IMG/VR virus record: IMGVR_UViG_3300026097_000011
Location: 1-64,000 of that record
Source of the DNA: a virus
Direction: 5' to 3' (one strand)
Length of the DNA stretch: 64,000 bases
The notes under the pieces were generated by a model. That model saw only the letters and a list, made by a program, of their open reading frames with translations, had not been told where the DNA came from and did no database searches. Numbering within the stretch: position 1 is the first letter of the stretch; each line of letters starts with the position of its first letter. Below are positions 5,242-52,918 of this stretch, one piece after another. A program made the translations under genes and the position numbers.

Positions 5242-6801
5242 TTACTGGTTTAGGTAAAAGTCTAATTTTTTTTGCATTTTATCTAGTTTTGAACCAGATT
5301 GTTTACCGAGAAGTTGTTTTTTAGCCTTTTCATAATTAAGATCTAATAATGCTCTTTCTAATCGCTTTTTAGATTCTTCAGGGTTTGATATATTATGTGT
5401 TAATGACATAAGACCTCCTCTTATTCCGATTTCATATATTCTATCTATTTTACGCTTACTGTTAATTCCTTTATTATGTCTAAATTGTGATCTATCTTCT
5501 GGAACTAATTTATATAACGAGTCAATTAGAGTATTGGATTCAGCAATTTGATCTTGAGTAAGTTCTTCTTTTTCATTATCTTCTATTTCTTCTAGTTCCT
5601 TTTGCCTTTTAATAATATCTTCCACTTGATCTTCTATTTTATTAGGATCAAGAGTATCGAGCTTAGACCATTTCTTTTTGTCTTCGTCTGACATTCCATT
5701 TTTTCTAAGCTGTACTACTGACTTCATGTAATTATAATATAACTCACGCAACCTAGCAGTTAGACTAGAATCTCTCTTAAATGATACTTTAGTTGAGGCT
5801 TTTCCACTAGATATTTCCTCAATATCACTTACAAGTTCATCAGGTTCTTTATCTTCTATCATTTCATTATAAATATCTACTTCTAATTGAAGATCGGGAG
5901 TAATTTTAACCTGATCTCCATCTACATAGAAGGAATCGTCCTCTAATAAAATAGTAGATACATCATCTACTTCGATGTCACCTGCTGGAGGAGTCCAATA
6001 ATCTCCAGGGTCGTATGTTTCGTTAATAGTGGCATTTGTTGAATATACGATGTTGAATAGTGCTCCATCTTTATCATTTGATAATCCTAGCAGTTTACGA
6101 TCCTCGTCACTTATTACTCCTAATCCAAGATCAGTTGGAAATAATCCAATTCCATCCAAATAATCTATGTATGCATCAGGTATTTTATCTTGATTGGATG
6201 TCAACGTCATAGCTATATCTGTAATATAATCATCTATTATACCCTCATTATGTTCTACATTAGTTAAATTATCTCCGCCTTCATGAACATCAACATCAAC
6301 TAGTTTTAAAACAGTAGGCCTACCGGTGATCAATTTTAATACTTCTCCTAATAGATATGATTTTGCAGATTCATCACTAGACGTTGAGTCTTTTGATTCT
6401 AATATTAGCTCATGATTAAACAAACGTGTTCCTATTTCTCTAAGTGCACTACCTATATCTAGATGTTTCAGAGTAATCCAATGAAATGGAGTCTTATTAT
6501 GATTAAGAACTACACTCGGCCTACCAGGAGTTTTCATATTAAATACTCCTTTTAAACCATCTTCTCCTTTATAATCAATTTTTCTACCTGCAAATTTATT
6601 TCCACCTTTGTGAATAACTCGATATATAGTATCACCTATAAATACCATCTTTATTCCGGGTTTTATCTCTGCATATCCATTAATAGTAGTTACATAAAGG
6701 AACCGACCTTCTTTAGTTGGGCGTCCCTTGATCAATATAACGGATCCCCTCCCTATTGATTCATTGAGTTTTTCGGAATAAGGTAAAATGTACTTGTTCA
6801 T
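5242..6801 (-). CDS. large hypothetical protein with a capsid-targeting-like N-terminus
   Basis: 519 residues. The first residues MNKYILPYSEKLNE|SIGRG fit the tag seen on many proteins here, with LNE as a possible prohead-protease site. The N-terminal 120 residues are rich in short beta strands (GSVILIKGR, FLYVTTINGYAEIKPG). Residues about 270-330 are strongly acidic, and the rest is helical and charged. The gene is divergent from the next one, with an ATAAATAAAT-type element in the 50-base gap. It is likely a virion or internal head protein; the function is unknown. Confidence 0.6.
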   Translation of the reverse strand: MNKYILPYSEKLNESIGRGSVILIKGRPTKEGRFLYVTTINGYAEIKPGIKMVFIGDTIYRVIHKGGNKFAGRKIDYKGEDGLKGVFNMKTPGRPSVVLNHNKTPFHWITLKHLDIGSALREIGTRLFNHELILESKDSTSSDESAKSYLLGEVLKLITGRPTVLKLVDVDVHEGGDNLTNVEHNEGIIDDYITDIAMTLTSNQDKIPDAYIDYLDGIGLFPTDLGLGVISDEDRKLLGLSNDKDGALFNIVYSTNATINETYDPGDYWTPPAGDIEVDDVSTILLEDDSFYVDGDQVKITPDLQLEVDIYNEMIEDKEPDELVSDIEEISSGKASTKVSFKRDSSLTARLRELYYNYMKSVVQLRKNGMSDEDKKKWSKLDTLDPNKIEDQVEDIIKRQKELEEIEDNEKEELTQDQIAESNTLIDSLYKLVPEDRSQFRHNKGINSKRKIDRIYEIGIRGGLMSLTHNISNPEESKKRLERALLDLNYEKAKKQLLGKQSGSKLDKMQKKLDFYLNQ

Positions 6802-6851
6802 AAATTTATTTATTCTTCTAATAAATAAAACTATAAAAATTATACTAAACT

Positions 6852-8840
6852 ATGTCGTCTAAATTTAATGAACAAACAGGACTATATGAGCAGGTTAATG
6901 TAGATAACAATCAGCTTGATGTAAATTCAGAAACAAAAAATGAAGTAACTACCGCTGAAAAAGCTGCTATTGCTAATGGAAACACTGGTAAGCTGCATGC
7001 CTTTAAAATAAACCCTTCTAATTTAGATTCAATTAATCAACTTATATCAGGCCAAATTAAAGAATGGAAATCTGAAACTCCACTTATTGTTTTAGGAAAA
7101 GATGGAACTCTTGGAGGAGAAGCAATGTTAAATGGTAAACCTCTATATTTGATGTTTAGAATAGCTTCTAAAAAAGAAAGAGCATCTAGTGAATTACAAT
7201 TAGAATTGAGCGATAGAATATATTTACTATTGAATACTAGCCCAGTTGAATTATCTAGTATTTTAAAGAACGCTGATAATATGGATCATAGAGTTAATGT
7301 TGCAGCTAAAGGACCAAATGGTGTTGAAAACACAGTTGCAATTTGGAGTGAAAATGTTTCTAATGAGCCTACTCCGGATGATTCTACTAAAACTGAAAAT
7401 ACTAATAATGTTAACGTAGATATGGAAGCTCAAATTGAAAATCCAGGAACTGCTGCAGGAATTTCAGGAACAGTTGAAGATGGAATTAATGAACAAAATG
7501 CTACAATGCCTCCAACGTATGATCCTAGTAAACATAAAAATGATAAAATAGATCCTAGTCTTTTGTCAACTGAAAAAGGAGAAAAAGCACAGGCATCAAA
7601 TAGTATGACTAAGGGACTTAATAAAAACTTATTAGAAGTTAATAATGAATTGGGCAAAAATGCCAAGATTATAACTCGAAAGGATAAAACCAAAGTAATT
7701 AAATTAAACCTAACTAAGAAATATACTGGAATTGATGGAGTTGCTTATTTTTATAGTAATGGTAGAATGTATATAAAGGCAAGTGGAAAGTTATTTGCAA
7801 AGGGTTCGTATAAAGATGGGGGGAAAACAATATCAGTGGATGGAGGAAAAACTATTAAAAATGAAAGTATATATGGAAACCTAAAGACAATTGCTAAAGG
7901 AACTAAATCCACATCTAACACATCCTCTGCATTTAAAACTCAAGAAGAAGGAGACGCATTTAGAAAATGGGCAAATTCAACAGATGAATTAAAGAAAAAA
8001 TACGGAAAAGAATCTAAATTCGATTTAGATGCTAAGGGTAAATTCAATAACTCATATATTAATAATGCATTCAGTGCAGCTAAGGAAGATTATTTAGCAT
8101 ATATGAAAAATAAAAAGAACTTCAAATACAAAGAAGGTGATATAGTTTATTATAGAATTAATTCGGATGGAAAAGCTGAGATGGAGAAAGACATGTTATC
8201 TGGAGATGTTAAAGGAGCAGTTGATAAGCAAAAAAAGGAAATGGAAAAGGATAGAAAGACTACTCCAGTTGAAGATCAATATAACTCATCAGAAGCAATT
8301 GCAACTAGTTTTGATATGTACAGGCAAATAACAGAAGAAGGTCTAATTGATGAATTATCAAGTAAAGAAGTTGACGATCAAGCAGGATTAATTAAAGATA
8401 TGAAAGCCGGTAATCTTAAGAAAGGAAAAGTAATTAAACAAATCGATGACAATACTGTTAAGGTAATTAATACAAAATCTGAAAAAGAAGAAACTATTAA
8501 GCTATCAAATATTGTTCCAAAAGAAGATGCTAGAAATGCAGCTATTAAGATAAAAGCAAGTAGAGAAAAGGAAGAAAAAAAGAAAAAGGAAAAGAAAACA
8601 GATTTAGAAAAATCAGAAGAAGAATTAAACAAAGAAAAAGAAGAAAGCAAATCTATTAAACAAAAGCTTAAAGATAAAAGAAAAGAAAAAAGAAATCTTA
8701 AAAAGGCTAATCGTAAAGATAAGAGACAAAAGAGAAAAAAGAAAAAGATAGAAAAAGTTCAAAGTAAAATAGACGATGCAAGTGAATCGGTAGTTTATGA
8801 CTTTTCAGAATTTATGGAAAAAACAAATAAATTGAACTAA
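6852..8840 (+). CDS. large charged hypothetical protein with a Lys/Glu-rich C-terminus
   Basis: 662 residues. The N-terminal 190 residues form a folded-looking alpha/beta region, then a disordered Asn/Thr/Glu stretch. Residues about 280-350 are strand-rich (GIDGVAYFYSNGRMYIKASG). Residues about 570-640 are almost all Lys, Glu and Arg and should form a long charged helix. The extreme C-terminus, YDFSEFMEKTNKLN, repeats at the other end the YxxF(I/M)xE tag found at the N-terminus of many proteins here. The stop overlaps the next ATG by one base. It is probably a virion protein, possibly DNA-associated because of the basic tail. Confidence 0.6.
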   Translation: MSSKFNEQTGLYEQVNVDNNQLDVNSETKNEVTTAEKAAIANGNTGKLHAFKINPSNLDSINQLISGQIKEWKSETPLIVLGKDGTLGGEAMLNGKPLYLMFRIASKKERASSELQLELSDRIYLLLNTSPVELSSILKNADNMDHRVNVAAKGPNGVENTVAIWSENVSNEPTPDDSTKTENTNNVNVDMEAQIENPGTAAGISGTVEDGINEQNATMPPTYDPSKHKNDKIDPSLLSTEKGEKAQASNSMTKGLNKNLLEVNNELGKNAKIITRKDKTKVIKLNLTKKYTGIDGVAYFYSNGRMYIKASGKLFAKGSYKDGGKTISVDGGKTIKNESIYGNLKTIAKGTKSTSNTSSAFKTQEEGDAFRKWANSTDELKKKYGKESKFDLDAKGKFNNSYINNAFSAAKEDYLAYMKNKKNFKYKEGDIVYYRINSDGKAEMEKDMLSGDVKGAVDKQKKEMEKDRKTTPVEDQYNSSEAIATSFDMYRQITEEGLIDELSSKEVDDQAGLIKDMKAGNLKKGKVIKQIDDNTVKVINTKSEKEETIKLSNIVPKEDARNAAIKIKASREKEEKKKKEKKTDLEKSEEELNKEKEESKSIKQKLKDKRKEKRNLKKANRKDKRQKRKKKKIEKVQSKIDDASESVVYDFSEFMEKTNKLN

Positions 8841-10057: not shown

Positions 10058-11188
10058 ATGAGAGCACTTAGCTTTAAAGATTTTTGTATCAATGAGGGAG
10101 CATCGGTAAACAAACGAAACGGTATGGTTACTTTAAACTGGAGTGATGATAGAAACGATGAATATGAATTTCTTAAGACTAATAATACAATGGAGGTCGC
10201 TAATATTAGAAAAACCGGAATAGGAAATTTTCCAATTTACTTTGGACTATCGGTAGACCAAGATAGATTATCGGAATTACAAAATAAAGCAGATGTTAAA
10301 ATGACATTAGACTGGTTAAAACAGTCTAAGATAGAAGGAGGATTAAAATCTATAGTTCAATTTGCTCAGCCTACTATTAGCTATATTAAAAAACAACATT
10401 CAATCGATTACGTGATCCCCATGGGATCCACAAAGGGATTATCTAAAGACCTAAGTGATGCAATTTCTGAATTAATCGGAAACGCAAATGTTGTTCCATT
10501 GGATAAGTATGAATTTGATAATATATCTCAGGCCATAGATTGGGAATATGTAGAATCATATGAAGATAATCCTAAAACTAAGTCAATATTGCCTCAATTA
10601 ATTGCGATAATCAGAGAAGAAATAGATACAACATCACCTGAGGTTCTAAATAGATTAAGAAAAGTAACAGATTGGCAAGAGCTTAAGGGACTACTACTAA
10701 GAAGTAATCCAAATAATAGATATTTTGATAAAGAAAATGAGATTGTTTGGAAAAATGATTCATTTAAAATACGAAGTAGTGGAGAATTATGGGCAGGATT
10801 AAGACAAGCTTTTAAAACTAAGTATCAAACTCCTAAGAGAAGTGGAGAATTTGGAAGTCCTGAATTTATGGATGCATTTAGAAAATGTGTTTTAAATAGT
10901 AAAACAATGCTACTTGTTGATGATAACACAAGATCTAAGAAAGATATATCAAATATAATAGATACATTATTAGAAGTAGGAAATAATATTTTAGCCGATA
11001 TACCAAATAGACCCACACTAGATCAATCAACATGGACAAAGAGAATAATATCATATGTACTTATTTTCGTACCAGACCACAAAGCAAAAATATCAAATAA
11101 GGTTAATTTATCTAAGGATGATGAAGTTAAATCAATTGAACCTTTTTACAATATTAATCAAGAAATAGAAGATTTCGAAGATAAATAA
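10058..11188 (+). CDS. tagged protein with phosphoribosyltransferase-like motif
   Basis: 376 residues from the ATG at 10058; a TTG one codon earlier is less likely. It begins MRALSFKDFCINE|GASV, one of the best capsid-targeting-like tags here. Later YVIPMGSTKGLSKDLSDAIS and MLLVDDNTRSKKDISN resemble the two conserved loops of phosphoribosyltransferases of the ComF type (the PRPP loop is usually VDDxxTTG), but the TTG part is changed to TRS. The similarity is weak and could be only fold-level. A late-promoter-like element precedes it. I infer an internal head protein that enters the host with the DNA. Confidence 0.55.
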   Translation: MRALSFKDFCINEGASVNKRNGMVTLNWSDDRNDEYEFLKTNNTMEVANIRKTGIGNFPIYFGLSVDQDRLSELQNKADVKMTLDWLKQSKIEGGLKSIVQFAQPTISYIKKQHSIDYVIPMGSTKGLSKDLSDAISELIGNANVVPLDKYEFDNISQAIDWEYVESYEDNPKTKSILPQLIAIIREEIDTTSPEVLNRLRKVTDWQELKGLLLRSNPNNRYFDKENEIVWKNDSFKIRSSGELWAGLRQAFKTKYQTPKRSGEFGSPEFMDAFRKCVLNSKTMLLVDDNTRSKKDISNIIDTLLEVGNNILADIPNRPTLDQSTWTKRIISYVLIFVPDHKAKISNKVNLSKDDEVKSIEPFYNINQEIEDFEDK

Positions 11189-13410: not shown

Positions 13411-13779
13411 ATGGGTTACATTAGATTAAAAAGATTAAATGAACATCATGATGATGATATGCCAGCTGAATTATTAAATATGACAATTGGTGAGATGTTA
13501 GACAAAGCTGAAGAGTTAGACACAAAGGGAGACGCAGAGTATGAGGTTATAGAGGATGCACTAAGAGCAATTGGGGATAAGATATTAGGAACCGGATACG
13601 AAACAGAAGTAGATTTTACTCCAGATGGAGTTGAGAATGCAGGAGATAACGAGGATGAAGATCATGATCCACTATCTCATCAAATAGAAACATATGATGA
13701 AATAGCTGGACAGCAAGACATGGGACAAGGCCAAGGTGCTCCAGATAATGGTATGAATATGGATAACTTCACATTTTAA
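13411..13779 (+). CDS. acidic tagged hypothetical protein
   Basis: 122 residues, very acidic. It begins MGYIRLKRLNE|HHDDDMPAE, where RLNE is a candidate prohead-protease site. A helical region (MLDKAEELDTKGDAEYEVIE) is followed by a disordered Gln/Gly/Asp-rich C-terminus. An ATAAATAAAATAAAA element lies about ten bases upstream. Its stop overlaps the next ATG (TAATG). It is the first of a run of five small genes with tag-like ends and is likely a virion-internal protein. Confidence 0.55.
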   Translation: MGYIRLKRLNEHHDDDMPAELLNMTIGEMLDKAEELDTKGDAEYEVIEDALRAIGDKILGTGYETEVDFTPDGVENAGDNEDEDHDPLSHQIETYDEIAGQQDMGQGQGAPDNGMNMDNFTF

Positions 13780-14066
13780 TGAGTGTTAAATCGTACATAT
13801 CGTTTTTAAAGGAAGATATAGGTGGTGCTATTACAATGAACAGAACACCCCCTAGTAAATTAAATGATCCTAAGCTTAATGTTCAACAACCTAGAACAAT
13901 TGACACAGGTAGAGGTGGATCAATTCCATTTCACTGGAATAATTCCCCAGGTACACAAGCAGGAGCTAGATATGGAGCAAATCCACGTGAAAAAAATCGT
14001 GTTATGACATATGAAGAATTCATGGAAGCTCAAAAAAAGAATTCACAGAAAGAAAATAACGAATAA
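13779..14066 (+). CDS. small protein with tag-like motifs at both ends
   Basis: 95 residues. The N-terminus MSVKSYISFLKE|DIGGA has the YxxFxxE pattern, and the C-terminus NRVMTYEEFMEAQKKN repeats it. The centre is rich in Pro, Asn, Gly and Arg and probably unstructured. It is co-transcribed with its neighbours (one-base overlap on the left and one base before the next ATG). If both ends were cut by the prohead protease, only the basic middle would remain. Confidence 0.55.
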   Translation: MSVKSYISFLKEDIGGAITMNRTPPSKLNDPKLNVQQPRTIDTGRGGSIPFHWNNSPGTQAGARYGANPREKNRVMTYEEFMEAQKKNSQKENNE

Positions 14067-14067: not shown

Positions 14068-14361
14068 ATGGGACATATTGATAATTTTAAAAAATTTAGA
14101 AACAGGGAAGAGAAAGCTTTAACTGAACAGGGAGACTCTACTACTGTAATGAGCGTACCTGAAAAGTTTAAAGCAGATCAAGAAGCAATTAATCAAAAGA
14201 GAAATAACATTGCACAAAGAGAACAGGCAATTGCTAATGAAAAAGTTCAACTCAATAAGATGGTTAGCGAATTACAGGATAAAATATCGGCGGAAAATGC
14301 TGCTATTGCAAATGCGGCTAAAGCAACTGCACAGGCTCAGCCAACTCCACCAACAGTATAA
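14068..14361 (+). CDS. small coiled-coil protein
   Basis: 97 residues from the ATG at 14068; the open frame runs upstream into the previous gene but ATG 14068 directly follows its stop. It starts MGHIDNFKKFRNREEKALTE. Residues 40-80 are a long helix rich in Gln, Asn, Lys and Ala (NIAQREQAIANEKVQLNKMV), consistent with a coiled coil, and the end is Ala/Pro rich. The N-terminus fits the tag only loosely (ALTE|QGD). Confidence 0.5.
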   Translation: MGHIDNFKKFRNREEKALTEQGDSTTVMSVPEKFKADQEAINQKRNNIAQREQAIANEKVQLNKMVSELQDKISAENAAIANAAKATAQAQPTPPTV

Positions 14362-14813
14362 TGAGTAAAGATAAAAATGTAAAGTCATATAGCGATTTCA
14401 TTAATGAGACTGAACAAAAAGTAGTACATAATACTAATTTTACAGGAATGGTTCAAGGTGCAGTATCAAGCATTCACAGTCAAGTATTAGCCATTGCTAA
14501 AGCAATGGCGGATGAAAAAGAAGCTAGAAACCCTTATCGATATCAAGATGCTGATAAAACTGGAGGAGTTGAAGAAGTAGACATTACACGAGCTCTTAAT
14601 CTTATATTTCATAGTGATTGGAAAAAGCATTTAAAGGCTCATAATATCCAAGAATGGGCTAGATCTTGTATCGAAAGAGCAGGAAAACATGATGAGCGAG
14701 CAGATAAGAAGAATCAAAGAGCTCTTCGTACAAATGGAGGAGAACAGATTGACAACTATAAAGTTGACTTAGGGTCTCAAGGATTTAGTAGAGATCTTGG
14801 AGAAAATAAATAA
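14361..14813 (+). CDS. tagged hypothetical protein
   Basis: 150 residues. It starts MSKDKNVKSYSDFINE|TEQK, an almost perfect match to the KxYxxFIxE capsid-targeting pattern, so cleavage after residue 16 is predicted. The body is helical and basic (FHSDWKKHLKAHNIQEWARS, HDERADKKNQRALRTNGGEQ). It overlaps the upstream gene by one base and lies seven bases from the next. No family recognised; probably an internal head protein. Confidence 0.6.
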   Translation: MSKDKNVKSYSDFINETEQKVVHNTNFTGMVQGAVSSIHSQVLAIAKAMADEKEARNPYRYQDADKTGGVEEVDITRALNLIFHSDWKKHLKAHNIQEWARSCIERAGKHDERADKKNQRALRTNGGEQIDNYKVDLGSQGFSRDLGENK

Positions 14814-15573: not shown

Positions 15574-16026
15574 ATGAAAAAGTATATACGAACATATTCA
15601 TCCTTTATAAATGAGGCTCGTACTAAGCAATGGCTAGATGACGTGACAGATAAGAAAGGTAACATAAGAAAGGTTAGAATAGATGATACTATTAAAATTA
15701 GAGTCCTTGAGTTTATATATGAAGCAGGAAAAGAAGGAAGACGATACACTGAAATCGTTAAATTTATAGTTGAAAACATAAAGGGAATGGTATATGATTG
15801 GAGAATTCACAGGGGATATTGGGCAACTAACTTAACTGGTGCAATTGGATTTTGGGGAGGATCCGATACTGGACTACTCACTCAATATTGTGAAAAAAAT
15901 GAAAATGGAAAGTGGGTATTAGCAAATGATAAGCTAATAAACTACTTTATGAAAGTTGACTTTAGAGGAGTATTAGATGATGCAGAAAGAGATGCACTCG
16001 AAGAATTACTTTCAATTGATAAATAA
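15574..16026 (+). CDS. tagged protein with a possible winged-helix domain
   Basis: 150 residues. It opens with MKKYIRTYSSFINE|ARTK, one of the clearest capsid-targeting-like tags (compare T4 internal proteins). After the tag, residues 35-75 (LEFIYEAGKEGRRYTEIVKF) read like a winged helix-turn-helix, then a Trp/Gly-rich loop (GFWGGSDTGLLTQYC) and an acidic helical end. An ATAAATAAATAAATA run stands before the ATG. It could be a DNA-binding protein carried in the head. Confidence 0.6.
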   Translation: MKKYIRTYSSFINEARTKQWLDDVTDKKGNIRKVRIDDTIKIRVLEFIYEAGKEGRRYTEIVKFIVENIKGMVYDWRIHRGYWATNLTGAIGFWGGSDTGLLTQYCEKNENGKWVLANDKLINYFMKVDFRGVLDDAERDALEELLSIDK

Positions 16027-16469: not shown

Positions 16470-18191
16470 TTATAAGCTACCATCGGCTCCAGTCTCTCCA
16501 CCTTCTATAGTTTCTTGACCTCCGCCTTCTTCTTCTCCTTCAGTAGGCGGAGGAGCAGCTCCACCGCCTGCATCTATTGGAGCTGCTCCTTCTCCTCCAG
16601 GCATTTCAGTATTTGCTTCTCCTTCTGCTCTTTCGTCTTCTTCCATATCGAACCATTTCTTATTAGCTTCGATTTCGTCTTCTGACATTTTTAATTCTTT
16701 TCTAATTAAGTATTCAGTAGAGAAGTATGGTGTTCCATCATCTTTAAGAACTCCTTTCTTAGCAGTGAATGATGCAATACGTTTAGCTTCCAATTCATTC
16801 TCCTTCATCTCTTCGAATACATTATCGTTATGATAAGTTATTCCAATAGCGTTATTAAATTTGTAATCTTCCTTAAGTTCTGGAAAATCTAAACACATCT
16901 GTAAATACCAAGGTTTTACAATTAACTCAGAGAACGCTGAACGTAATCTTCTAATAAACTTTTGATAGCGAACTTCCTCTCTTGTAATACCTTCAGCATT
17001 CAAAGTAAATGCTCCCATTCCAGATTGACCTTCCCATCTTGAATATGGTATCTTAGAATCCATCTTTAATTTCTTAGTGAAATATCCAAGTAATTCAGAA
17101 TTTGATAAATTAGGTCCAGGAAACTGTAGGGCTTCAATTGAGATCGATTGATTTTGATCATTTACCGGCGTTACATAATTCTTATAAAACATAATATTTG
17201 GTTTACCATCAACTGTTAATTCTCCAGTATCACCATTAAAGAATACGTCCTCTTTTAATAAGTTCATAAATTCTTTAACATCTTCTTGTGCTTTTTGGAA
17301 TGATTTAGATCCAGTTGGAACCTTAGTTTGTAATCTAATTGGAGCATTCATAACGTGCCAAATTACTTTACTATGTTCTAATATTCTAAGCAAGTTAAAT
17401 GATCTTATTAATCTTTCAACGAAACTAATTCTTTTAGTTTTAAAATGATTTGCATATGATATGTAAATAATCTGAGAATCGGATAAAACTCTAGTTGATC
17501 CGTTAGATGGATCATATTGAGTCCACTGTAAATACATTTTACCCTTAGCATCTTTATTAAGCTGTGGCGCAATACTTGCTGGGTCTAATTCTTTAAATCC
17601 TATGATTTTCTTAGGCTTTTCTGGATTATCATAAATAATTTCAAAACTTAAATGTCCCTCAATTAAGAATTGATATGAATATTGCCAAGCTGCAATACCT
17701 TCACCGAATCCCCAGGTATTGTACATCTCTTCGAAGTTAGATTGATATTTTTTAATTATATCATCCTGGTAATTTAGTCTTTCAGTTTTATTAGAACCCT
17801 TAAACATGATTTTACCAGTAAGATCAGTTGCGTGGCAAAATCGATTTTCATCACTATATACAACCATATCATCTGCTATTGTATCAAGTATAAATTCAAT
17901 TTCTCCATTTGATGCAATATCACGTAATCTTTCTCTCTTAACTGTATAGTCTAATTGAAAAAACGCAATTGCTTTCGTTCTTAATTGTGATGTTGTATCT
18001 GCTAATGCCATTGAGAACTTTAAAAGCTCATTGTTTCCATTCGTAGTATCTCTAGAAGCCAATTGACTTTCGATAAATCCTATTGCTTTGGAATTCTTAA
18101 GCAGTAGATCATCAAATCTTGTACCAAACTTACTTAAGCCTGATAGTGCTCCACTTGTTGATCCTGTTCTATTATCCCCAAATCCTGCCAT
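16470..18191 (-). CDS. portal protein, gp20-like
   Basis: 573 residues. It forms the dodecameric ring at the DNA-entry vertex, on which head assembly starts. Blocks typical of T4 gp20-type portals are present: FILDTIADDMVVYSDENR, the ELDPASIAPQL strand, SKVIWHVMNAPIRLQTKVPT, IPYSRWEGQSGMG and EVRYQKFIRRLRSAFSEL. The C-terminal 60 residues are a low-complexity Gly/Glu/Pro tail (GGGAAPPPTEGEEEGGGQE), unlike T4. The gene lies one base from the unknown gene 18193-18855 and near gp4, a usual head/neck neighbourhood. Confidence 0.92.
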   Translation of the reverse strand: MAGFGDNRTGSTSGALSGLSKFGTRFDDLLLKNSKAIGFIESQLASRDTTNGNNELLKFSMALADTTSQLRTKAIAFFQLDYTVKRERLRDIASNGEIEFILDTIADDMVVYSDENRFCHATDLTGKIMFKGSNKTERLNYQDDIIKKYQSNFEEMYNTWGFGEGIAAWQYSYQFLIEGHLSFEIIYDNPEKPKKIIGFKELDPASIAPQLNKDAKGKMYLQWTQYDPSNGSTRVLSDSQIIYISYANHFKTKRISFVERLIRSFNLLRILEHSKVIWHVMNAPIRLQTKVPTGSKSFQKAQEDVKEFMNLLKEDVFFNGDTGELTVDGKPNIMFYKNYVTPVNDQNQSISIEALQFPGPNLSNSELLGYFTKKLKMDSKIPYSRWEGQSGMGAFTLNAEGITREEVRYQKFIRRLRSAFSELIVKPWYLQMCLDFPELKEDYKFNNAIGITYHNDNVFEEMKENELEAKRIASFTAKKGVLKDDGTPYFSTEYLIRKELKMSEDEIEANKKWFDMEEDERAEGEANTEMPGGEGAAPIDAGGGAAPPPTEGEEEGGGQETIEGGETGADGSL

Positions 18192-18864: not shown

Positions 18865-19371
18865 TTACATCTTACCGAACAAAAAGTTCTCTGTTATTAT
18901 GCCAAATTTCATATTATGAGCTTTAGCATATGCTTTAGCTGCTTTGAATTTATCTGTATTAACAACATATGCTCTCGCATGAGATACAAAACTTCGTGTT
19001 TGTTTTTCAGTCATTCTTTTTGGAGTCTTAGGTGGAAGTATATACTTGTTAGGTTTAACTTCAATTAACCATTCACGCTCTACTCCATTAGCATTACGTG
19101 TTTTCATATATCCATCTACCCAATATGTTGCCTCTCGTTTATCTATTGAGTGCCAGTATTTAATTCCAATAGGCTCTGAAGCATATTCAATTACCATTGG
19201 ATTTTCGTCACAGAATTTAAAGAACTTGAATTCCCAGCCTGATCGATATATAATTTGAGTAAGATCTCCCTTATATTTTTGAGGATTTTTAGGCACAAAA
19301 TATCCTTGACGAATACGCTTGCCCGTTCTAGGTTTTAGGAAAGATTTTATGTTTTTATCCTTGTTGCTCAT
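18865..19371 (-). CDS. head completion nuclease, gp4-like
   Basis: 168 residues; T4 gp4 (also called gp50) is 150. The conserved core is clear: IYRSGWEFKFFKFCDENP, EYASEPIGIKYW, a YWVDGYM strand with the acidic residue, and EWLIEVKPNKY giving the ExK pair of a TnsA-like nuclease fold. The protein acts in head completion after packaging. The N-terminus is basic (KPRTGKRIRQGYFVPKNPQK). A GAATAAATAAG element sits between its ATG and the divergent gene at 19419. Confidence 0.85.
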   Translation of the reverse strand: MSNKDKNIKSFLKPRTGKRIRQGYFVPKNPQKYKGDLTQIIYRSGWEFKFFKFCDENPMVIEYASEPIGIKYWHSIDKREATYWVDGYMKTRNANGVEREWLIEVKPNKYILPPKTPKRMTEKQTRSFVSHARAYVVNTDKFKAAKAYAKAHNMKFGIITENFLFGKM

Positions 19372-19418: not shown

Positions 19419-19931
19419 ATGAAAACTCATATATTTAAATATAAGAATTGGAAGAAGATACATGAGAATACTTCAAATAATTCTATATATTCACATTTAA
19501 ACTCTATTAGAAAAGGTGATGAATATGAGTACACAGATGAATATCATGAGTCTATCACTATCGAAATAATATCGATGAATGATTATGTATTCAAGGAAAG
19601 CGCCGACAGTTCAATATATGATGAAATATATAGATTAGAGCTAGATGATATTTTGTTAGATGATAATTCGTCTGATGAATTTGACAATAATTACAAAGAA
19701 TTTCATGTTCGAAATAATACAATTGAAGGTAAATTCGACGCAGTGATATCTGTGGTAATTAATGATCATTTAAAATGGCAAATTCGCGACGCTGATTACG
19801 GAACAGAAATTGACGTATCATCTGGAAATGACGATTTTAACGATGATTATAATGGTACTATGATGGTTAGTGCAATCGAAGAATATCTAAAATTAGATTG
19901 GACTAATGGTTACATATATAGTATTGAATAA
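19419..19931 (+). CDS. acidic tagged hypothetical protein
   Basis: 170 residues, rich in Asp and Glu. It starts MKTHIFKYKNWKKIHE|NTSN; KxxxFKYxxWxxIHE fits the tag with W in place of F. The rest alternates short strands and acidic loops (DIDDILLDDNSSDEF-like, SSGNDDFNDDYNGTMMVSAI). It is a solitary plus-strand gene between two minus-strand operons, with its own late-promoter-like element and a terminator directly after the stop. Probably an internal head protein. Confidence 0.55.
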   Translation: MKTHIFKYKNWKKIHENTSNNSIYSHLNSIRKGDEYEYTDEYHESITIEIISMNDYVFKESADSSIYDEIYRLELDDILLDDNSSDEFDNNYKEFHVRNNTIEGKFDAVISVVINDHLKWQIRDADYGTEIDVSSGNDDFNDDYNGTMMVSAIEEYLKLDWTNGYIYSIE

Positions 19932-20182: not shown

Positions 20183-20776
20183 TTAATTACGGCTATATCC
20201 CCAGGCATCGAGTAATGTACCTCGCGTTACACCGCTAAATTCGTCTCTTATTCTTTCTTCTAGTGTTCCAAGATTTCTTCTATTAGAAGCAGCCCTTGCA
20301 TTAAATCGTTCAGCTATTTTAGCCATTAATTCTGGTTTATGTTGATGTCGGTTGGCAATCCTTAGGATTGTTTGTTCATCAGTACCATCAAGAGTTCCAC
20401 CCATAGCTCTAGCGATTTGAAATGCTTGTTCATCTGCATAATCACTAGTTATTCCAGACTGCTCATTTAGCTTAGTATCAATAAATGAGTCAGCTTCATG
20501 AGGTCCAAGTTTTCCTTTTTCTACTAACTTAACAATAAGAGCGGATATTGCAAGATGCTCTCCTTTTTTTCCTTCAGGGATCTCAACTTCATTTCTCTCA
20601 AATGATTTTTTAAGATCTTCAAATGCTTCTCTTGCACATTCTTCTACGTCTGCTTCAGATCCAACTAGATCAACTAAAGAGTCCAGTATTGTTTCGTCCA
20701 TGTCCATTTCAACTTCTGCGTTCTCATTAATGATACTTGCGTTGAATGATGCAAATGATGTATGTAATCTATTCAT
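20183..20776 (-). CDS. tagged protein with annexin-like repeat
   Basis: 197 residues. The N-terminus MNRLHTSFASFNASIINE|NAEV fits the tag, with INE as the predicted cut. The C-terminal 75 residues read like one annexin repeat: GTLDGTDEQTILRIANR, then LMAKIAERFNARAASN, NLGTLEERIRDEFSG and TRGTLLDAWGY, with GTDE and the Glu/Asp of the DEFSG helix in the places of the annexin type II calcium site. Before it are acidic helices (DVEECAREAFEDLKKSFERN). Annexin repeats bind phospholipid with calcium. A membrane-linked role at DNA entry is speculation. A perfect late-promoter-like element precedes the gene. Confidence 0.6.
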   Translation of the reverse strand: MNRLHTSFASFNASIINENAEVEMDMDETILDSLVDLVGSEADVEECAREAFEDLKKSFERNEVEIPEGKKGEHLAISALIVKLVEKGKLGPHEADSFIDTKLNEQSGITSDYADEQAFQIARAMGGTLDGTDEQTILRIANRHQHKPELMAKIAERFNARAASNRRNLGTLEERIRDEFSGVTRGTLLDAWGYSRN

Positions 20777-29309: not shown

Positions 29310-29315
29310 TAAAAA
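29301..29315 (+). promoter_or_regulatory. late-promoter-like element
   Basis: GATAAATAATAAAAA, overlapping the stop codon of the kinase gene and ending 10 bases before the GTG start at 29326. Confidence 0.55.
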
Positions 29316-29325
29316 ATTCATTGCC

Positions 29326-34022: not shown

Positions 34023-34226
34023 ATGGCCGATACTAAACACAAAGATGCAAGTTGGAAAAACATAAAAGATTGGGCAAAAGGAAAATCTCGATTAGAAGTC
34101 GGAGTAGTTCAACATCCAGATGAAGATCCAAAAACCTCTATTATAGATTATATGAGAAAGAATAAAACTAAAAGAAAGGAATTACATATTTTGCCATTTG
34201 GACAATACGAAAAAATGGGTAAATAA
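34023..34226 (+). CDS. small basic hypothetical protein
   Basis: 67 residues, basic (HKDASWKNIKDWAKGKSRLE at the start, RKNKTKRKELHILPFGQYEK near the end). No family recognised. Its stop overlaps the start of the M15-type peptidase gene by one base, so they share a transcript from the late-promoter-like element upstream. Confidence 0.5.
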   Translation: MADTKHKDASWKNIKDWAKGKSRLEVGVVQHPDEDPKTSIIDYMRKNKTKRKELHILPFGQYEKMGK

Positions 34227-34980: not shown

Positions 34981-35250
34981 ATGAAAGATAAGAAAATAGA
35001 AGAAGATATGTTAGCACCAGCTGACTCACCAGCATTTACTCAATCACCTATTCACCAGGTTCCAGCAACAGCTTCTCCTGGTGATAATATGGATACGTTT
35101 TCTCTAACTGGTCCTGGAAAATCTAAAACTACAGGTAAATCTGATAGTAAAAAAGATAATAAGAAACATCCTAAAAAGGAAGCTGCATCTTTTCCCTCTA
35201 ATAAAGTATTAACCTTTGAGGATTTCATGAATCAAAGAAGCACTAAGTAA
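34981..35250 (+). CDS. small disordered protein with C-terminal tag-like motif
   Basis: 89 residues, rich in Pro, Ser, Thr and Lys (SPIHQVPATASPGDNM, TTGKSDSKKDNKKHPKKE), so largely disordered. It ends NKVLTFEDFMNQRSTK, the C-terminal version of the tag also seen in genes 6852-8840 and 13779-14066. It follows the M15-type gene by two bases. Unknown function; perhaps a small internal or scaffold-associated protein. Confidence 0.5.
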   Translation: MKDKKIEEDMLAPADSPAFTQSPIHQVPATASPGDNMDTFSLTGPGKSKTTGKSDSKKDNKKHPKKEAASFPSNKVLTFEDFMNQRSTK

Positions 35251-37908: not shown

Positions 37909-39399
37909 ATGGCAAAGAAAGATTTAATAAAGGTAATAACGGATCCAAAGGTTCCACTTAAAGAGCTATGGTCAACAGACACAGGTAGTGTATCTGTTGA
38001 GAACCCATTTATTATACCAGGTAAAGGAACTAGAACAGCTGCTATGAGCGTTGGATCAGATGTACCATTTGTTAAGATTAATTCTATTCCCATTACTGAA
38101 ATTGATTTATTAATAATAGATGAAACTGGAATAGTACCTAAAATTAAGATTATATTTATGGATGGATCAGGTGCATTGACTGGAGCCAATTATCCTAAGA
38201 ATGATCCGATTTTAAGCCTCTATATTAAGTCTCAAAATAGTAAATTTAAACCAATTAGATGTGACTTTTTAATTACTAATATTAAAACTAATCAGGACCC
38301 AGTATTAAATGCCGAAAATATTGACATAGGCGCAAACTTTATTATGACAGGCGAATTATACATACCTAAAATATATAAAAACGTATCCAAGAGCTATAGA
38401 AATATGAACTCAAAAGATACGCTTAAGAAGATTGCATCAGAAACTGATTTAGGATTTGCATGTAACGAGTTTATAACAAATGACAAGATGACGTGGTTAA
38501 ACACTAATAGTAGCAGTTTAAATTTTATAGATCATGTATCAAAACATTCTTATTTAGATGATGATACATTCTTTACGTCATTCATAGATAAATTTTATCA
38601 CTTGAATTTTATTAATGTTGCTGAACAATTGAATCTGGCAAATGAACATAATATGACATATGATAATACTGTGGATTCATCAGAGTTAGACATATCAGAA
38701 AAAGTGGCAAGTGAAATAGATAATGATAAATTATCTGAAATGCTAAGTGTTGCAGGTTTAACAAATAAAGATGAATACAGAGGGAAGCCTGAGTACATTA
38801 TAAATTATTATTTAATGGGAAATACTGGAAGTATATTAAAGAACAAAGGATATAAAAAGAAAGTATACTACTATGATCCTTCACTAGAAGACGAAAATAG
38901 ATTTACTAGTTTTTTTGTAAATCCTATTGAAATCAAAGGATATACTGGAGAAAACAAAGGATTAGAACCTGATGATGAATCTTTAAGAGAATCAATTATT
39001 AAAAAATGGATGAATATTGATTATGGAAATGCTCATCCTGAATGGAATGCATCGGCACTTATCAATGATCATAACAACAGCGAGCTTAACAAAGTAAAAC
39101 TTAAAGTTGAGACTGCTGGTATTAATTTTCAAGTTAATAGAGGTGCTTCAATTCCTGTGATGATGTATTTTCCACCAACTACATATTTAGAAAAAGACAT
39201 ACAAAGAGCAGATGGAAGCGCTAAGACACAAACTCCTATTAATATACAGGACTCGGTACCAGACGGGATTATATCTGGAAAATACTATGTAAGTGGCGTT
39301 AGATATATCTATGATAGATTAAATGACTCATTTCCATTTAAAACTGAATTTCAATTAGCTAGGGTTAATTGGTTAGGTGAAAATAATATAGTTCAATAA
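37909..39399 (+). CDS. baseplate hub protein (gp27/gpD-like)
   Basis: 496 residues. After an N-terminal beta-rich domain (VPFVKINSIPITEIDLLIID) comes the pattern MNSKDTLKKIASETDLGFAC, then MTWLNTNSSSLNFIDHVSKH and TFFTSFIDKFYHLNFINVAE, characteristic of gp27/gpD-type hub proteins, in which a small domain is inserted in the barrel. The protein should form the trimeric hub joining tail tube and central spike. Its partner spike is encoded two genes later. Its stop overlaps the next ATG by one base. Confidence 0.65.
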   Translation: MAKKDLIKVITDPKVPLKELWSTDTGSVSVENPFIIPGKGTRTAAMSVGSDVPFVKINSIPITEIDLLIIDETGIVPKIKIIFMDGSGALTGANYPKNDPILSLYIKSQNSKFKPIRCDFLITNIKTNQDPVLNAENIDIGANFIMTGELYIPKIYKNVSKSYRNMNSKDTLKKIASETDLGFACNEFITNDKMTWLNTNSSSLNFIDHVSKHSYLDDDTFFTSFIDKFYHLNFINVAEQLNLANEHNMTYDNTVDSSELDISEKVASEIDNDKLSEMLSVAGLTNKDEYRGKPEYIINYYLMGNTGSILKNKGYKKKVYYYDPSLEDENRFTSFFVNPIEIKGYTGENKGLEPDDESLRESIIKKWMNIDYGNAHPEWNASALINDHNNSELNKVKLKVETAGINFQVNRGASIPVMMYFPPTTYLEKDIQRADGSAKTQTPINIQDSVPDGIISGKYYVSGVRYIYDRLNDSFPFKTEFQLARVNWLGENNIVQ

Positions 39400-42611: not shown

Positions 42612-42910
42612 TCGAAATTAATGTTGTTTTCTTTTTTATATTTATCCCATGATTCAGCGTCCATTAGATCAGGAAATCTTCCTCCTTTATTACAAGATCG
42701 TTTAACATAGAATTTTCCAGGAAGTTCACATCCGCAATTTACACAATATCCATACTTAACACAATCATCCTTGCATTTTTCAGCTCTATACATTACCTGT
42801 TCACTTTCATGAACTGGAATAATATTAAGCCTGTCGCCTAACATTTTAATATTTCCTTCTATAAATTGCTGAATGGCATTTATTGTAATCTTAGGTTTTG
42901 GTTTTTTCAT
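42608..42910 (-). CDS. Cys-rich protein of the glycan island
   Basis: 100 residues. The centre has CKDDCVKYGYCVNCGCELPG, followed by FYVKRSCNKGGRFPDLMD: six Cys, probably two metal sites. The start overlaps the NeuB gene's end as ATGA. I recall similar short proteins next to surface-sugar genes in phages but know no function. Confidence 0.55.
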   Translation of the reverse strand: MKKPKPKITINAIQQFIEGNIKMLGDRLNIIPVHESEQVMYRAEKCKDDCVKYGYCVNCGCELPGKFYVKRSCNKGGRFPDLMDAESWDKYKKENNINFE

Positions 42911-43761
42911 TTTCCTCTTAAAGATTTGCGTTTTTCTAATTCTGATCCCATCACTTCGCGTGGAGAATTTCCTCCCATTGCTTTTTCAATATCTCTGATT
43001 CCTTTCACAAGCTTCATAAGGCCACTCGGTTCCACTGACGAGCTTTGATCACTTCCCCAATTAGTTCTATCAAGAGTAATATGTCGTTCAACCCATGTTG
43101 CCCCAAGTGTCACGGCCGCCATTGTAGTTATAAGTCCATATTCATGTCCTGAATATCCAATCGATGTATCGTGGCCATATTTATTCTTAAGCCAAGTTAT
43201 ATACTCTAATCTCAATTCATCAACGTTAGACGGATAGCTTGAATTAGTATGCATAACGACATCAGGAGTTATTGCATTCATACATCTAGTAATTTCCTCT
43301 TCGGTACTCATTCCCGTACTAATTATTATATGATCAAAACTATCTCTAGCATATGAACATAAATCAATATCAGTAATTAAAGCAGAAGGAATTTTAGTAA
43401 TTTGGGGTTCTATTTCGCGCATGAATTCAACGGATTGTTTATCCCAAATTGATGCAAATAATCCTATTGATTTAGAAAAACAATAGTCTGCTAATTCTTT
43501 CCATTCTTCTTTGTTAAACTCAATATCATGTTTGTATTGAATATAAGTAGTTGGTTCAGTTCTCCATGGAACAATCTTTTTCAGATGTTTTTGCTGTTCT
43601 GGAACACAATGTTCAGGAGATCTCTTTTGAAATTTAACCCAATCACATCCAGCTACGACTGCCACATCAATTAGTTGCTTTGCTTGATTTAAAAAATTAG
43701 ACTTATCTGTTCCATAAGCATAATTCAGGCCCACCTCAGCCACAATTTTAGTTTTTTCCAT
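42907..43761 (-). CDS. neuB: N-acetylneuraminate synthase-like enzyme (NeuB) without SAF domain
   Basis: 284 residues. NeuB condenses phosphoenolpyruvate with ManNAc or a related sugar to make a nonulosonic acid. Typical blocks: IVAEVGLNYAYG, CDWVKFQKRSPEH, KSIGLFASIWDK, IPSALITD, HIIISTGMSTEEEI, HTNSSYPS, SIGYSGHEYG and WVERHITLDRTNWGSDQSSS with VEPSGL. Usual NeuB proteins have about 340 residues and end in an antifreeze-like (SAF) domain; this one stops after the TIM barrel. The product could be sialic, legionaminic or pseudaminic acid. NeuA is in the same island. Confidence 0.88.
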   Translation of the reverse strand: MEKTKIVAEVGLNYAYGTDKSNFLNQAKQLIDVAVVAGCDWVKFQKRSPEHCVPEQQKHLKKIVPWRTEPTTYIQYKHDIEFNKEEWKELADYCFSKSIGLFASIWDKQSVEFMREIEPQITKIPSALITDIDLCSYARDSFDHIIISTGMSTEEEITRCMNAITPDVVMHTNSSYPSNVDELRLEYITWLKNKYGHDTSIGYSGHEYGLITTMAAVTLGATWVERHITLDRTNWGSDQSSSVEPSGLMKLVKGIRDIEKAMGGNSPREVMGSELEKRKSLRGK

Positions 43762-49859: not shown

Positions 49860-49927
49860 ATGTCGATTATTTTAAAACCATTGATATAATATTATATACA
49901 ATATTAAATAACTATAGTTTAACTATT

Positions 49928-50887: not shown

Positions 50888-50921
50888 AGTAAAGAATTTA
50901 ATTTTTTTCTATTAAGTCTGT

Positions 50922-50936
50922 TATAAATAATAAAAA
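50922..50936 (+). promoter_or_regulatory. late-promoter-like element upstream of the capsid operon
   Basis: TATAAATAATAAAAA, perfect TATAAATA plus A-run, 14 bases before the ATG at 50951. It should drive the protease-scaffold and major capsid genes. Confidence 0.7.
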
Positions 50937-50950
50937 ATTGCAGACGAATA

Positions 50951-52918
50951 ATGAACTTATCAAGCAATAGTCAATTAGACGATTTTGTACTTATAGTAGA
51001 AAACGTTGGAAAGGACTTAACAATGAAAAAGGCTTCTAATGATTATATATTAGAGGGTGTTTGTGCGGTATTTGGCGCAAAGAACAATAATAACCGAGTT
51101 TACGAGAAAGATGAGTACCTTCCGCATTTAAGTTATTTACAAGATAAGATCGATAAGGGTCAGCTGGTTGGAGATTTAGATCACCCACCACATTTTGATG
51201 TAACTCTTAAAAGTGCATCTCACATTATCGAGTCGTTAGATTATGACGGTGGAGATAAAGTAAACATTAAACTAAGAATTTTAAATAATACTCCAAACGG
51301 AAAGATCGCAAGAGCTTTATTAGACGGAGGAGTTAATCTATCAATTTCATCTAGAGCAGCAGGACAAGTTCTTGAATCTAGTAAAGTTAAACTTCACAGA
51401 ATCTTTACTTACGATTTAGTAGGAGAGCCTGGTTTTACTGAAGCTATTTTAAAGAAAACCCTTAATGAATCTCTTAAAAATGATTTCCAAATGATTACAG
51501 AAAGCTATGATCATTTGAAAGAAGAATCATTTGTTGAAAAAGAGCATTTAGTTAATATTTCAGAAAATTTAAACTTTAGTGATAATATTAAAGTCTATAA
51601 AATAAATAAACCTATAGAATCTATGTTTGAGAGCTCTATATCAAAAGAAGAAAAAAATAATAACACAATGGCCGACACTAAAGATTTTGTAACTAAGGAG
51701 AGTATGAATAGATACTCTGAAGTAGTTAAGGAAAATTTCGAAAGCTTAAGAGCTGAATTAAAAAATCAAAAAGCTATAATGGAATCTGCTGGAAACGGTG
51801 AAGGACATGATCTAAATAGCTTATTTAGTTTTGTTAGTTATATTGCAGAACACTTAGAAGGAGTTATTAATTACTCTGATTATCTTTCTGAAATGGTTAA
51901 CAAAAATGTTGCATACACAGAGCATGTTGCAGAAACTACTAACCATGCAATTGAATATTCTAGTTATATTGGAGAGAAATTAAATACTTCAATTGGACAT
52001 AACGATTATATTGCAGAAAAATTAAATCAAACGATTAATTACGCTGAATATATCAAGGAAAGCTTAAACGGTTCAATTAATTATCAAAATTATTTAGCAG
52101 AGGAATTAGATAGAGGTATTCAATATACTGAGTATGTAGCAGAAGGAGCTAATAATGGGATTCAATTCTCAGAATATCTTTCTAAATCTATTAACGAAAA
52201 CAGAGAATATGCTCAATATATAGCAGAAAAAACTACTCAAGGGATTGGTTATACTGAATACGTTGCAGAACAAATGAATGCAGGAGTTTCAGCACCAGGT
52301 AAAAGAAGCCTGTTAGATAACGTAGAACGATTAACTGAATCAAAATCTATTGATAACTTAGTAGATAGTGTAGATGCAGTTATCGCAGAAGTTAGTTCTA
52401 ACTCAGCTAAAGCTGTACTAGAAAACAGACATCCTTTCTTAAAGGTTCTTTCAGAATCTCACAGAGAAAACTTCTACAAATTAGAATCTAATCAGAAACA
52501 AGCAATTGTTGAAGCATTAGGAGCTACTATTTGGTTCAATGAAGCTGATGTTTTAGGAATCATGGATTCAGTTGTTAATGAATCAACAAAAGACTTACAC
52601 ATTCTTGAGAAATTTATGCCAGATTCAGTTAAACCAGTTTGGAATAAAATGAATGAGAGTGAAAAATCAAGAATTTTCGCAAAATCTCAATTATATAACC
52701 TAAAGACACCTTATCAAGTTAAATCGTTTTTCGATGAACAAGACTTTAGAAGAATAAATGAAAGAGTTGCTATTGAGGCACAAAATATTAAAGAAATGCA
52801 AAAGCTTAACGAAAGCCAAAGTACAGAAGGTATGATATCCGTTGAAAGGGTAGTTGAGTCAAGCAGAGGTTATTCCTCAAATTACCTAGCTAATCTGCAA
52901 AGAAGAGCTAACAACTAA
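50951..52918 (+). CDS. prohead protease (gp21-like) fused to repeat scaffold
   Basis: 655 residues. It starts MNLSSNSQLDDFVLIVE|NVGK, a tag-like start with an IVE site. Residues about 30-165 are a gp21/S77-type prohead protease: GVCAVFGAKNNNNRVYEKDE, GDLDHPPHFDVTLKSASHII (His region), DGGVNLSISSRAAGQV (Ser) and a FTYDLVGEPGF strand. Residues about 240-655 look like the scaffold: a coil, then ten 14-residue repeats of the type IxYxxYVAExxNxx (51866-52285) and a helical C-terminus. In T4 the two are separate proteins, gp21 and gp22. The protease should cut the scaffold, the capsid protein and tagged internal proteins. Confidence 0.85.
   Translation: MNLSSNSQLDDFVLIVENVGKDLTMKKASNDYILEGVCAVFGAKNNNNRVYEKDEYLPHLSYLQDKIDKGQLVGDLDHPPHFDVTLKSASHIIESLDYDGGDKVNIKLRILNNTPNGKIARALLDGGVNLSISSRAAGQVLESSKVKLHRIFTYDLVGEPGFTEAILKKTLNESLKNDFQMITESYDHLKEESFVEKEHLVNISENLNFSDNIKVYKINKPIESMFESSISKEEKNNNTMADTKDFVTKESMNRYSEVVKENFESLRAELKNQKAIMESAGNGEGHDLNSLFSFVSYIAEHLEGVINYSDYLSEMVNKNVAYTEHVAETTNHAIEYSSYIGEKLNTSIGHNDYIAEKLNQTINYAEYIKESLNGSINYQNYLAEELDRGIQYTEYVAEGANNGIQFSEYLSKSINENREYAQYIAEKTTQGIGYTEYVAEQMNAGVSAPGKRSLLDNVERLTESKSIDNLVDSVDAVIAEVSSNSAKAVLENRHPFLKVLSESHRENFYKLESNQKQAIVEALGATIWFNEADVLGIMDSVVNESTKDLHILEKFMPDSVKPVWNKMNESEKSRIFAKSQLYNLKTPYQVKSFFDEQDFRRINERVAIEAQNIKEMQKLNESQSTEGMISVERVVESSRGYSSNYLANLQRRANN
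51668..52918 (+). CDS. possible nested scaffold protein (in-frame internal start)
   Basis: Residue 240 of the fusion is an ATG in a purine/A-rich context (AAAAAAATAATAACACAATG) that looks like the gene starts elsewhere here. Starting there gives a 416-residue free scaffold beginning MADTKDFVTKESMNRYSEVV. This would parallel the nested Nu3 scaffold within the lambda C protease gene. The internal start is predicted from sequence context only. Confidence 0.45.
   Translation: MADTKDFVTKESMNRYSEVVKENFESLRAELKNQKAIMESAGNGEGHDLNSLFSFVSYIAEHLEGVINYSDYLSEMVNKNVAYTEHVAETTNHAIEYSSYIGEKLNTSIGHNDYIAEKLNQTINYAEYIKESLNGSINYQNYLAEELDRGIQYTEYVAEGANNGIQFSEYLSKSINENREYAQYIAEKTTQGIGYTEYVAEQMNAGVSAPGKRSLLDNVERLTESKSIDNLVDSVDAVIAEVSSNSAKAVLENRHPFLKVLSESHRENFYKLESNQKQAIVEALGATIWFNEADVLGIMDSVVNESTKDLHILEKFMPDSVKPVWNKMNESEKSRIFAKSQLYNLKTPYQVKSFFDEQDFRRINERVAIEAQNIKEMQKLNESQSTEGMISVERVVESSRGYSSNYLANLQRRANN
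51866..52285 (+). repeat. ten 42-base (14-residue) tandem repeats in the scaffold region
   Basis: Ten units, each 42 bases, coding IxYxxY(V/I/L)AExxNxx, for example INYAEYIKESLNGS, IQYTEYVAEGANNG and IGYTEYVAEQMNAG. The DNA has diverged between units while the protein period is exact. Eight of ten carry a hydrophobic-(A/G/S/K)-E triplet that matches the gp21-type cleavage rule approximately. Confidence 0.8.

Follow-up and report, generated by a model that had tools for sequence, protein, structure and literature searches.

A virus record of 138,587 bp (IMG/VR IMGVR_UViG_3300026097_000011; G+C 32%), whose initial 64 kb are the window analysed here, encodes a set of unrelated proteins that open with a common tag, two aromatic residues three positions apart followed by an [ILV].E end. 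As a set, this N-terminal pattern is real. That the tags are T4-type capsid-targeting propeptides, which would dock on the scaffold core and be cleaved after the Glu, the cargo being kept in the head, is well supported but unproven, and we put its probability at roughly 70%. This phage and its relatives, some of them >600 kb, bear such an address-and-cut tag on one to three dozen unrelated proteins, most likely for head loading. The window also encodes a prohead protease fused to a scaffold with a tag-patterned repeat, a fusion that is new here and was absent from the first-pass annotation of this DNA.

The capsid-targeting sequence (CTS) of phage T4 has long been known. In the excerpts of the papers cited here and below, its first 10 residues suffice, with targeting at residues 4 and 7 and processing at residues 8 and 10, and gp21 cleaves after [LI]xE (PMC9026906). 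The leader packages internal proteins (IPs), IPI-III inhibiting GmrSD restriction enzymes (PMC3012670, PMC12373910), and T-even phages have already been mined for the CTS, at least 10 IPs being reported (PMC12373910). Like T4 (IPI-III, Alt; gp21, gp22), the present system has a short N-terminal leader with aromatics at 4 and 7, an aliphatic residue at 8 and Glu at 10, as well as an S77 protease, a T4-type portal and gp23, and the gapless spacing of its tag is that of the T4 CTS. Unlike T4, it shows 11-36 pattern matches per genome rather than a handful, a second, longer tag type ([FY]K.W..[LI]NE), a protease-scaffold fusion, and scaffold repeats with the tag pattern, such repeats not being seen in T4 gp22. 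By sequence, the T4-type propeptide proposed in the first-pass annotation is supported: the motif fits the CTS positions, and the protease, gp23 and portal are present. Searches limited to open-licence PMC papers listed nothing on mass tagging in these huge phages or on a likeness between tag and scaffold.

Tagged N-termini in the record

Genes were called with our own script, so start positions are approximate. The main regular expression, [YF]..[FYWH].{0,3}[ILVM].E starting within residues 1-20, was derived from the examples of the first-pass annotation, whose eight quoted N-termini were all found in the sequence where it had placed them; the record outside the window is therefore the fairer test. 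The expression matches 12 of 82 genes in the window, against 1.16 expected from the remainder of the proteins or 1.03 from 1000 N-terminus shuffles (maximum 5), and 6 of 72 outside it, against 0.74-0.94 (1000 shuffles, maximum 5). For the whole record the figures are 18 of 155 genes against 1.8-2.0, or 8 of 155 against 0.4-0.5 with strict spacing, so the excess over shuffled N-termini on which the claim depended is present. Counted in 20-residue bins from the protein start, the matches number 19, 1, 0, 0, 1 and 2, and the tags have the N-terminal location and 10-20-residue length of a T4-type CTS. Position-specific scoring matrices (PSSMs) built from six relatives only and scanned over this record placed N-terminal matches at ranks 1-4 with the no-gap model and at ranks 1-5 with the gap-2 model, rank 5 being 49245- (a trailing minus marks the minus strand), a member rejected below; the gap-1 and gap-3 models were noisier, 3/5 and 1/5 of their best five matches being N-terminal.

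Nine members were accepted in the window and four outside it (85311-, 86066-, 103874 and 131020), while 11929 in the window and 65018 and 85002- outside it are doubtful. Two further window genes are possible members. The tagging described in the first-pass annotation thus held, its count of at least twelve and perhaps fifteen being somewhat high; seven of its eight examples hold, and 5242- is uncertain. The accepted and then the possible members of the window are as follows, with the distance of the upstream ATAAATA box where there is one.

10058-11188, plus strand: tagged protein, 376 aa, tag residues 1-13 (end INE); gap-1 rank 2; box 24 nt upstream
13779-14066, plus strand: tagged protein, 95 aa, tag residues 1-12 (end LKE); regular expression and relatives' PSSMs
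14361-14813, plus strand: tagged protein, 150 aa, tag residues 1-16 (end INE); no-gap rank 3
15574-16026, plus strand: tagged protein, 150 aa, tag residues 1-14 (end INE); no-gap rank 4; box 11 nt upstream
19419-19931, plus strand: tagged protein, 170 aa, tag residues 1-16 (end IHE); gap-2 rank 1; box 27 nt upstream
20183-20776, minus strand: tagged protein, 197 aa, tag residues 1-18 (end INE); box 25 nt upstream
29299-29868, plus strand: tagged protein, tag end FREFEKINE; gap-2 rank 2; called from TTG, the true start may be closer to the tag
33494-33961, minus strand: tagged cell-wall hydrolase (SleB type), tag residues 1-13 (end LIE); Pfam Hydrolase_2 1.3e-7; box 27 nt upstream
34226-34978, plus strand: tagged protein, tag residues 1-16 (end IQE); gap-2 rank 3; relatives L223 and L224 tagged
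5242-6801, minus strand: possible tag PYSEKLNE, 519 aa; no-gap rank 9; box 12 nt upstream; without second aromatic
28198-28674, minus strand: possible tag LYEEYTDLE; gap-1 rank 4; relatives retain the aromatics, not the cleavage residues

Similar tagged N-termini accompany 14361 in genomes G001, G002, G008 and G009 and 29299 in G008 (at 55195), where 15574 also has a tagged relative; a related-loci search returned zero relatives with 15574 and two with 34226. The protein at 20183- fails the regular expression, its G009 relative passes and its G002 relative nearly does so, both being tag-like with a different spacing. Its earlier label as annexin-like is not borne out, no such match appearing in Pfam at E 0.1 and no sequence match in PDB at E 1. 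The product of 10058 had no match in Pfam or PHROG. That of 34226 may possibly be an M15 peptidase, a weak assignment (Pfam Peptidase_M15_4 0.047, under the cut-off), and a PDB sequence search gave no match. The SleB-type enzyme at 33494- supports by sequence the earlier view that cell-wall enzymes are among the tagged set; its closest relative, L225, is tagged with a different spacing, and nine more distant SleB frames show no tag within 25 residues ahead of the match, a check that did not examine the N-termini of long frames.

Two aromatics three apart at the mapped targeting positions characterize the set, 5242- being the exception, and an [LI]xE site is present by sequence, doubtfully so for 28198-, in a genome that encodes a gp21-like protease. 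Gene 28198-, G002 38630-39121 and G009 60177-60668 form one family that has both tag aromatics and lacks the [IL]xE end; perhaps this family is targeted without being cleaved. Three matches were judged chance: 41397 (59 aa, a doubtful gene), 49245- (tag absent in two relatives) and 57347- (a motif common to tagged and untagged gp52-like topoisomerases). Judged false were the UvsX-like and MSFNKYFIPEP matches, the ClpP matches in G003 and G005, which we take to be native N-termini, and the RNR match in G002, two relatives of which are untagged. The number of chance matches (gp52-like, UvsX-like, ClpP, RNR, 41397, 49245-) is consistent with the expected counts. The gp52-like, UvsX-like and MSFNKYFIPEP proteins were left out of the PSSM, box, ortholog and isoelectric point (pI)/length analyses, and ClpP and RNR were kept among the 126 proteins scanned for cargo. 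Separately, tag-like [YF]..FM motifs without a cleavage Glu lie at most 20 residues from the C-terminus in the open reading frames (ORFs) 6852-8840, 13779-14066 and 34981-35250; counted over this record as a second motif, [YF]..FM shows no enrichment (7 against 5.2 in shuffles).

Relatives, upstream box and conservation

In the phage collection, the top matches of the gp23-like capsid protein were uncultured huge phages and Lak phages, followed by Tenacibaculum phage PTm1 and Sphingomonas phage PAU; compared as DNA, the 15-35 kb stretch matched no phage record. Six relatives were located via gp23 and then taken as complete records. In these the regular expression matches 17/230, 25/208, 29/292, 36/298, 11/162 and 21/165 genes, with 1.7-5.8 expected in each; these counts, and the nine members accepted in the window, support the earlier suggestion of an unusually large tagged set. 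Two tag types were distinguished, [ILV]K.[FY]..[FWY][ILV]NE (83 examples) and [IL]L[ND][FY]K.W..[LI]NE (20 examples). A motif search without preset pattern reached log10 P -14.7 in G005, -25.8 in LR756500 and -25.7 in LR756502. In LR756500 (462 kb) it returned I..Y..F in 34 proteins against 2.5 expected, and the regular expression matched 33/658 genes against 12.7-12.9, or 26 against 3.4-3.8 with strict spacing. Proteins of this phage starting M[KE][YFH][IVL]..Y..[FYH] (32, less one of 50 aa) fall in 20 body families among 31, one with 12 members. Strict matches also exceed expectation in LR756502 (400 of 642 kb; 19/512 against 2.2-3.4) and LR745206 (100 kb; 7/132 against 0.6-1.3).

As controls, T4 gave 9/255 matches against 3.7-4.5 expected, two of them starting MKTYQEFIAE and presumably IPII and IPIII, and KVP40 gave 10/373 against 4.8-7.4. 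There was no excess in S-PM2 (3/204), PAU (3/288), PTm1 (5/298), MaF61 (2/182) or Lak-A2 (220 kb; 3/206). In T4 (NC_000866), a 54-aa ORF at 18966-19130 (minus strand) has the CTS-like start MKTFKEFIKED.

The word ATAAATA peaks 25-29 nt ahead of start codons, and we infer that it is a late promoter. In the seven genomes it precedes 41/50 tagged unit-leading genes and 176/529 others (p 3.5e-11). It is present before the protease-scaffold gene and absent before the six genes checked that we take to be replication-type or GroEL-like; the portal and gp23 have none within 90 nt, gp23 starting 18 nt behind the protease. The T4 form of the word, TATAAATA, showed no enrichment at tagged genes of the four genomes tested, where ATAAATAA was enriched instead.

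Conservation of the tag is comparable to that of the protein body, which is not so for the residues directly behind the tag. Over 94 ortholog pairs (108 both-tagged pairs minus 14 with body identity outside 15-75%), mean conservation is 2.69 in the tag, 1.72 in the next 12 residues and 2.42 in the body (tag against next 12, p 4.6e-7), and the tag spacing differs in 18 of the pairs. One tagged family was examined in more detail; its member in this record lies outside the window.

85311-86066 of the record (L003:3312-4067), minus strand: 85311-family protein with invariant HExxH, tagged in 7/7 genomes

In this family, for which five of eight loci found were aligned, HExxH is invariant in 12 sequences, and 11 of these, all but that of L222, carry the tag. 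Mean BLOSUM scores are 3.2 in the tag, 0.7 over the following 26 columns and 2.4-2.8 in the body, the untagged row excluded. A fold search with a low-confidence model (pLDDT 63) matched nothing in the PDB at an E of 0.001 or below.

The protease-scaffold fusion and its repeats

50951-52918, plus strand: S77-type prohead protease at the front, continuing into a scaffold-like part; Pfam Peptidase_S77 2.4e-10, phrog_207 2.6e-31
51830-52291, plus strand: array of 14-residue units Y..Y[LIV][AG]E in the fusion (residues 294-447), with the tag's pattern
52937-54592, plus strand: gp23-like major capsid protein with conserved [ILV].E sites E24 and E54
16470-18191, minus strand: T4-like portal (gp20); Pfam Portal_T4 1.1e-64

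The protease named at 50951 in the first-pass annotation is an S77 prohead protease by both Pfam and PHROG profiles (Pfam 40.7 bits against a cut-off of 27). Residues H78 and S133/S134, which we take to be catalytic, are invariant in 37 sequences, and a protease-scaffold match was found at 78 of 80 gp23 loci, some truncated at contig ends. In the gp23-like protein, E24 is kept in 57/57 and E54 in 56/57 distinct sequences. Protease-scaffolds of at least 600 residues carry 7-12 loose-motif matches each, mostly in the array at 14-residue spacing, and in each of 7/7 genomes the fusion is the sole protein with at least 3 strict tag motifs (9-10 copies). No protein with at least 3 was found in T4, PAU, PTm1, S-PM2, KVP40, MaF61 or the Lak part searched. 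In further phages, the scaffold holds 3 strict copies in LR756500, 11 in LR756502 (400 kb searched), 11 in LR745206 and 12 in LR756504, and in LR756500 (462 kb) and LR756502 (642 kb) array and mass tagging occur together. LR745206 also encodes a separate protein of 83 aa that consists of 14-residue units of the scaffold type (joined position 80496-80747 in L302; near 460477-460653 of the record).

Tag and array have in common aromatics at i and i+3, an aliphatic residue at i+4 and Glu at i+6, the very positions that, in the excerpts cited above, T4 genetics assigned to targeting and processing. Every array unit would be a potential cleavage site, as expected for a scaffold that is shredded. 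The predicted structure of the scaffold is a long helix, which is merely suggestive because pLDDT is 59 and mostly <50 in the array.

Comparable arrangements are known from other phages. In Sphingomonas phage PAU (NC_019521), 21 proteins, encoded mostly at 88586-120537, start with the tag MKT[LI]..L[YF]E; they include gp142 and gp154, the two genes with the annotation 'internal capsid protein' in the stretches viewed. Unlike here, the tag sequence is different and protease and scaffold are separate genes; the likeness of the PAU scaffold to the PAU tag is weak (rank 35 of 267; the protease ranks 14). PTm1 likewise has an annotated prohead core scaffolding protein fused to a protease, but its repeat units are different and it shows no tag excess. 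In the SPN3US/phiKZ type, inner head and ejection proteins lose their N-terminal propeptides to the prohead protease (PMC5694885); these propeptides resemble the present tags in position and, in the excerpt, differ in being mostly >100 residues long. The first 30 residues of phage P1 DarB direct a reporter into heads (PMC9024508), an N-terminal capsid-targeting signal as proposed here, whereas the Dar proteins are described in that excerpt as having no consensus and no separate scaffold (PMC9024508).

Cargo, alternatives and meaning

Cargo was surveyed in 126 of the 128 regex-tagged proteins of the six relatives, two crossing slice borders being omitted. At E 0.001, Pfam gave PG_binding in 4, NUDIX in 3, VanY, phage lysozyme and Clp protease in 2 each (the last judged native N-termini), and CHAP, HAD, nucleotidyltransferase, RNR (judged false) and 2H phosphoesterase in 1 each; among the best 25 of 71 PHROG families, 5'-3' deoxyribonucleotidase was added in 2. 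Of 43 LR756500 N-termini, 32 chosen by eye were scanned, giving leucine-rich repeats in 6 and a DUF2201 metallopeptidase and PNK3P in 1 each. PADLOC matched three families only, each with at most 3 members, and mature pI and length hardly differ between tagged and other proteins. The G003 protein L116:7120-7671:- appears 2H phosphoesterase-like; Acb1 was rejected, its profile giving 25.0 bits and 2_5_RNA_ligase2 25.3, both with a cut-off of 27. Among its relatives (5 of 21 records examined), those in LR756502, LR745206 and LR756504 start MIKKYLEFMKE, MKLKKYKQFIKE and MNFYSNFDDFLLE before the domain, and those in LR756508 and Maribacter phage Molly_5 start near the domain. The window also has an amidase at 27210-28178, which carries no tag and is a different protein from the tagged SleB hydrolase and the M15-like one. 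Elsewhere in the window, 42907-43761 (minus strand) encodes a NeuB-family protein, and the minus-strand run around it holds genes that, as read from their sequence, resemble sugar or surface-polysaccharide genes.

What the sequence itself shows is a conserved motif biased towards N-termini and genes behind the late-type box, and an array that repeats its pattern; docking, cleavage, packaging and injection we infer, with T4 as the analogy for docking, cleavage and delivery. The first 10-20 residues of a late-expressed protein would hold a pair of aromatics spaced by three and finish in [I/L/V]xE. With its aromatic side this tag would dock on the scaffold core forming inside the prohead, probably by imitating the 14-residue unit Y..Y[LIV]xE of the scaffold. 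The front part of the scaffold polypeptide, the protease, would then cut after the Glu, removing the tag and shredding the scaffold, and the cargo would stay in the head and exit along with the DNA. A tentative extension, which we hold at slightly under even odds, is a general cargo code of megaphages in which the tag is a copy of one scaffold repeat, so that the product of any gene gaining ~12 codons would enter the prohead core, be released by the protease half of the scaffold and be delivered with the DNA; phages of ~140-640 kb would preload one to three dozen proteins.

Several observations weigh against these proposals. Tag and repeat are not identical, F/W and N being preferred in tags where repeats have Y and A, and a PSSM of the scaffold repeat proved a weak tag predictor, residues 1-20 holding 2 of its ten best and 13 of its fifty best matches against 0.7 and 3.7 expected. 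The array carriers are related to one another, so the co-occurrence of array and tag does not represent many independent events; T4 has tags without such an array, and LR756504 (100 kb) has the array with no excess of tags (strict 2/165 against 0.9-1.2). Taken by itself, this record shows no enrichment of the box (4/9 tagged against 18/49 leading genes), and in 58/166 cross-genome pairs the partner is untagged. PHROG names among the tagged proteins include portal (3), tape measure (2) and baseplate hub (2), again among the best 25 of 71 families.

The last point, together with a tail-lysozyme match among the same families, would fit tags that are capsid-targeting propeptides on proteins mostly structural (core, head, tail) rather than on injected effectors. 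The 85311 family is tagged in all seven genomes, as a structural part might be, and many tagged proteins have no known family. We nevertheless consider this version unlikely, though a serious contender, since complete enzymes without obvious structural role are tagged (NUDIX 3, deoxyribonucleotidase 2, nucleotidyltransferase, 2H phosphoesterase-like and peptidoglycan enzymes), as are the leucine-rich-repeat proteins of LR756500, and tagged sets vary widely among relatives. It is improbable that the tag directs proteins elsewhere (tail, baseplate or a compartment of the infected cell), the [IL]xE end being incidental: some tagged enzymes do degrade cell wall, a function usually at the tail tip, but the Glu is retained together with the aliphatic residue two positions ahead of it, unlike the variable stretch that follows, the aromatic spacing agrees with the T4 CTS as mapped in the cited excerpt, and the scaffold has the pattern too. 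Chance, composition or regex bias finds some footing in a short motif, in the 3 of 12 window matches that are chance and in a preset-free search that was not significant in this record alone (best log10 P -5.8, where shuffled N-termini of G005 and PAU reach -6.0 to -8.3). Yet shuffled N-termini of the same composition yield 1-2 matches against the 12 and 18 observed, the preset-free search goes far beyond that level in G005, LR756500 and LR756502, and PTm1 and MaF61 have no excess; for the set as a whole, chance is already refuted, while single members may be chance.

If capsid targeting is the function of the tag, a T4 speciality of three internal proteins becomes an address code that can be read on ~1/10 of genes in certain large uncultivated phages (by regex counts, chance matches included), and virion cargo could therefore be listed from sequence. 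The array may also offer a candidate answer to what binds the T4-type targeting peptide, namely the scaffold's own repeat interface. Under the tentative cargo code above, the preloaded proteins would include nucleotide- and RNA-directed enzymes (NUDIX, deoxyribonucleotidase and an Acb1-related 2H phosphoesterase) that could blunt host defence before phage genes are read.

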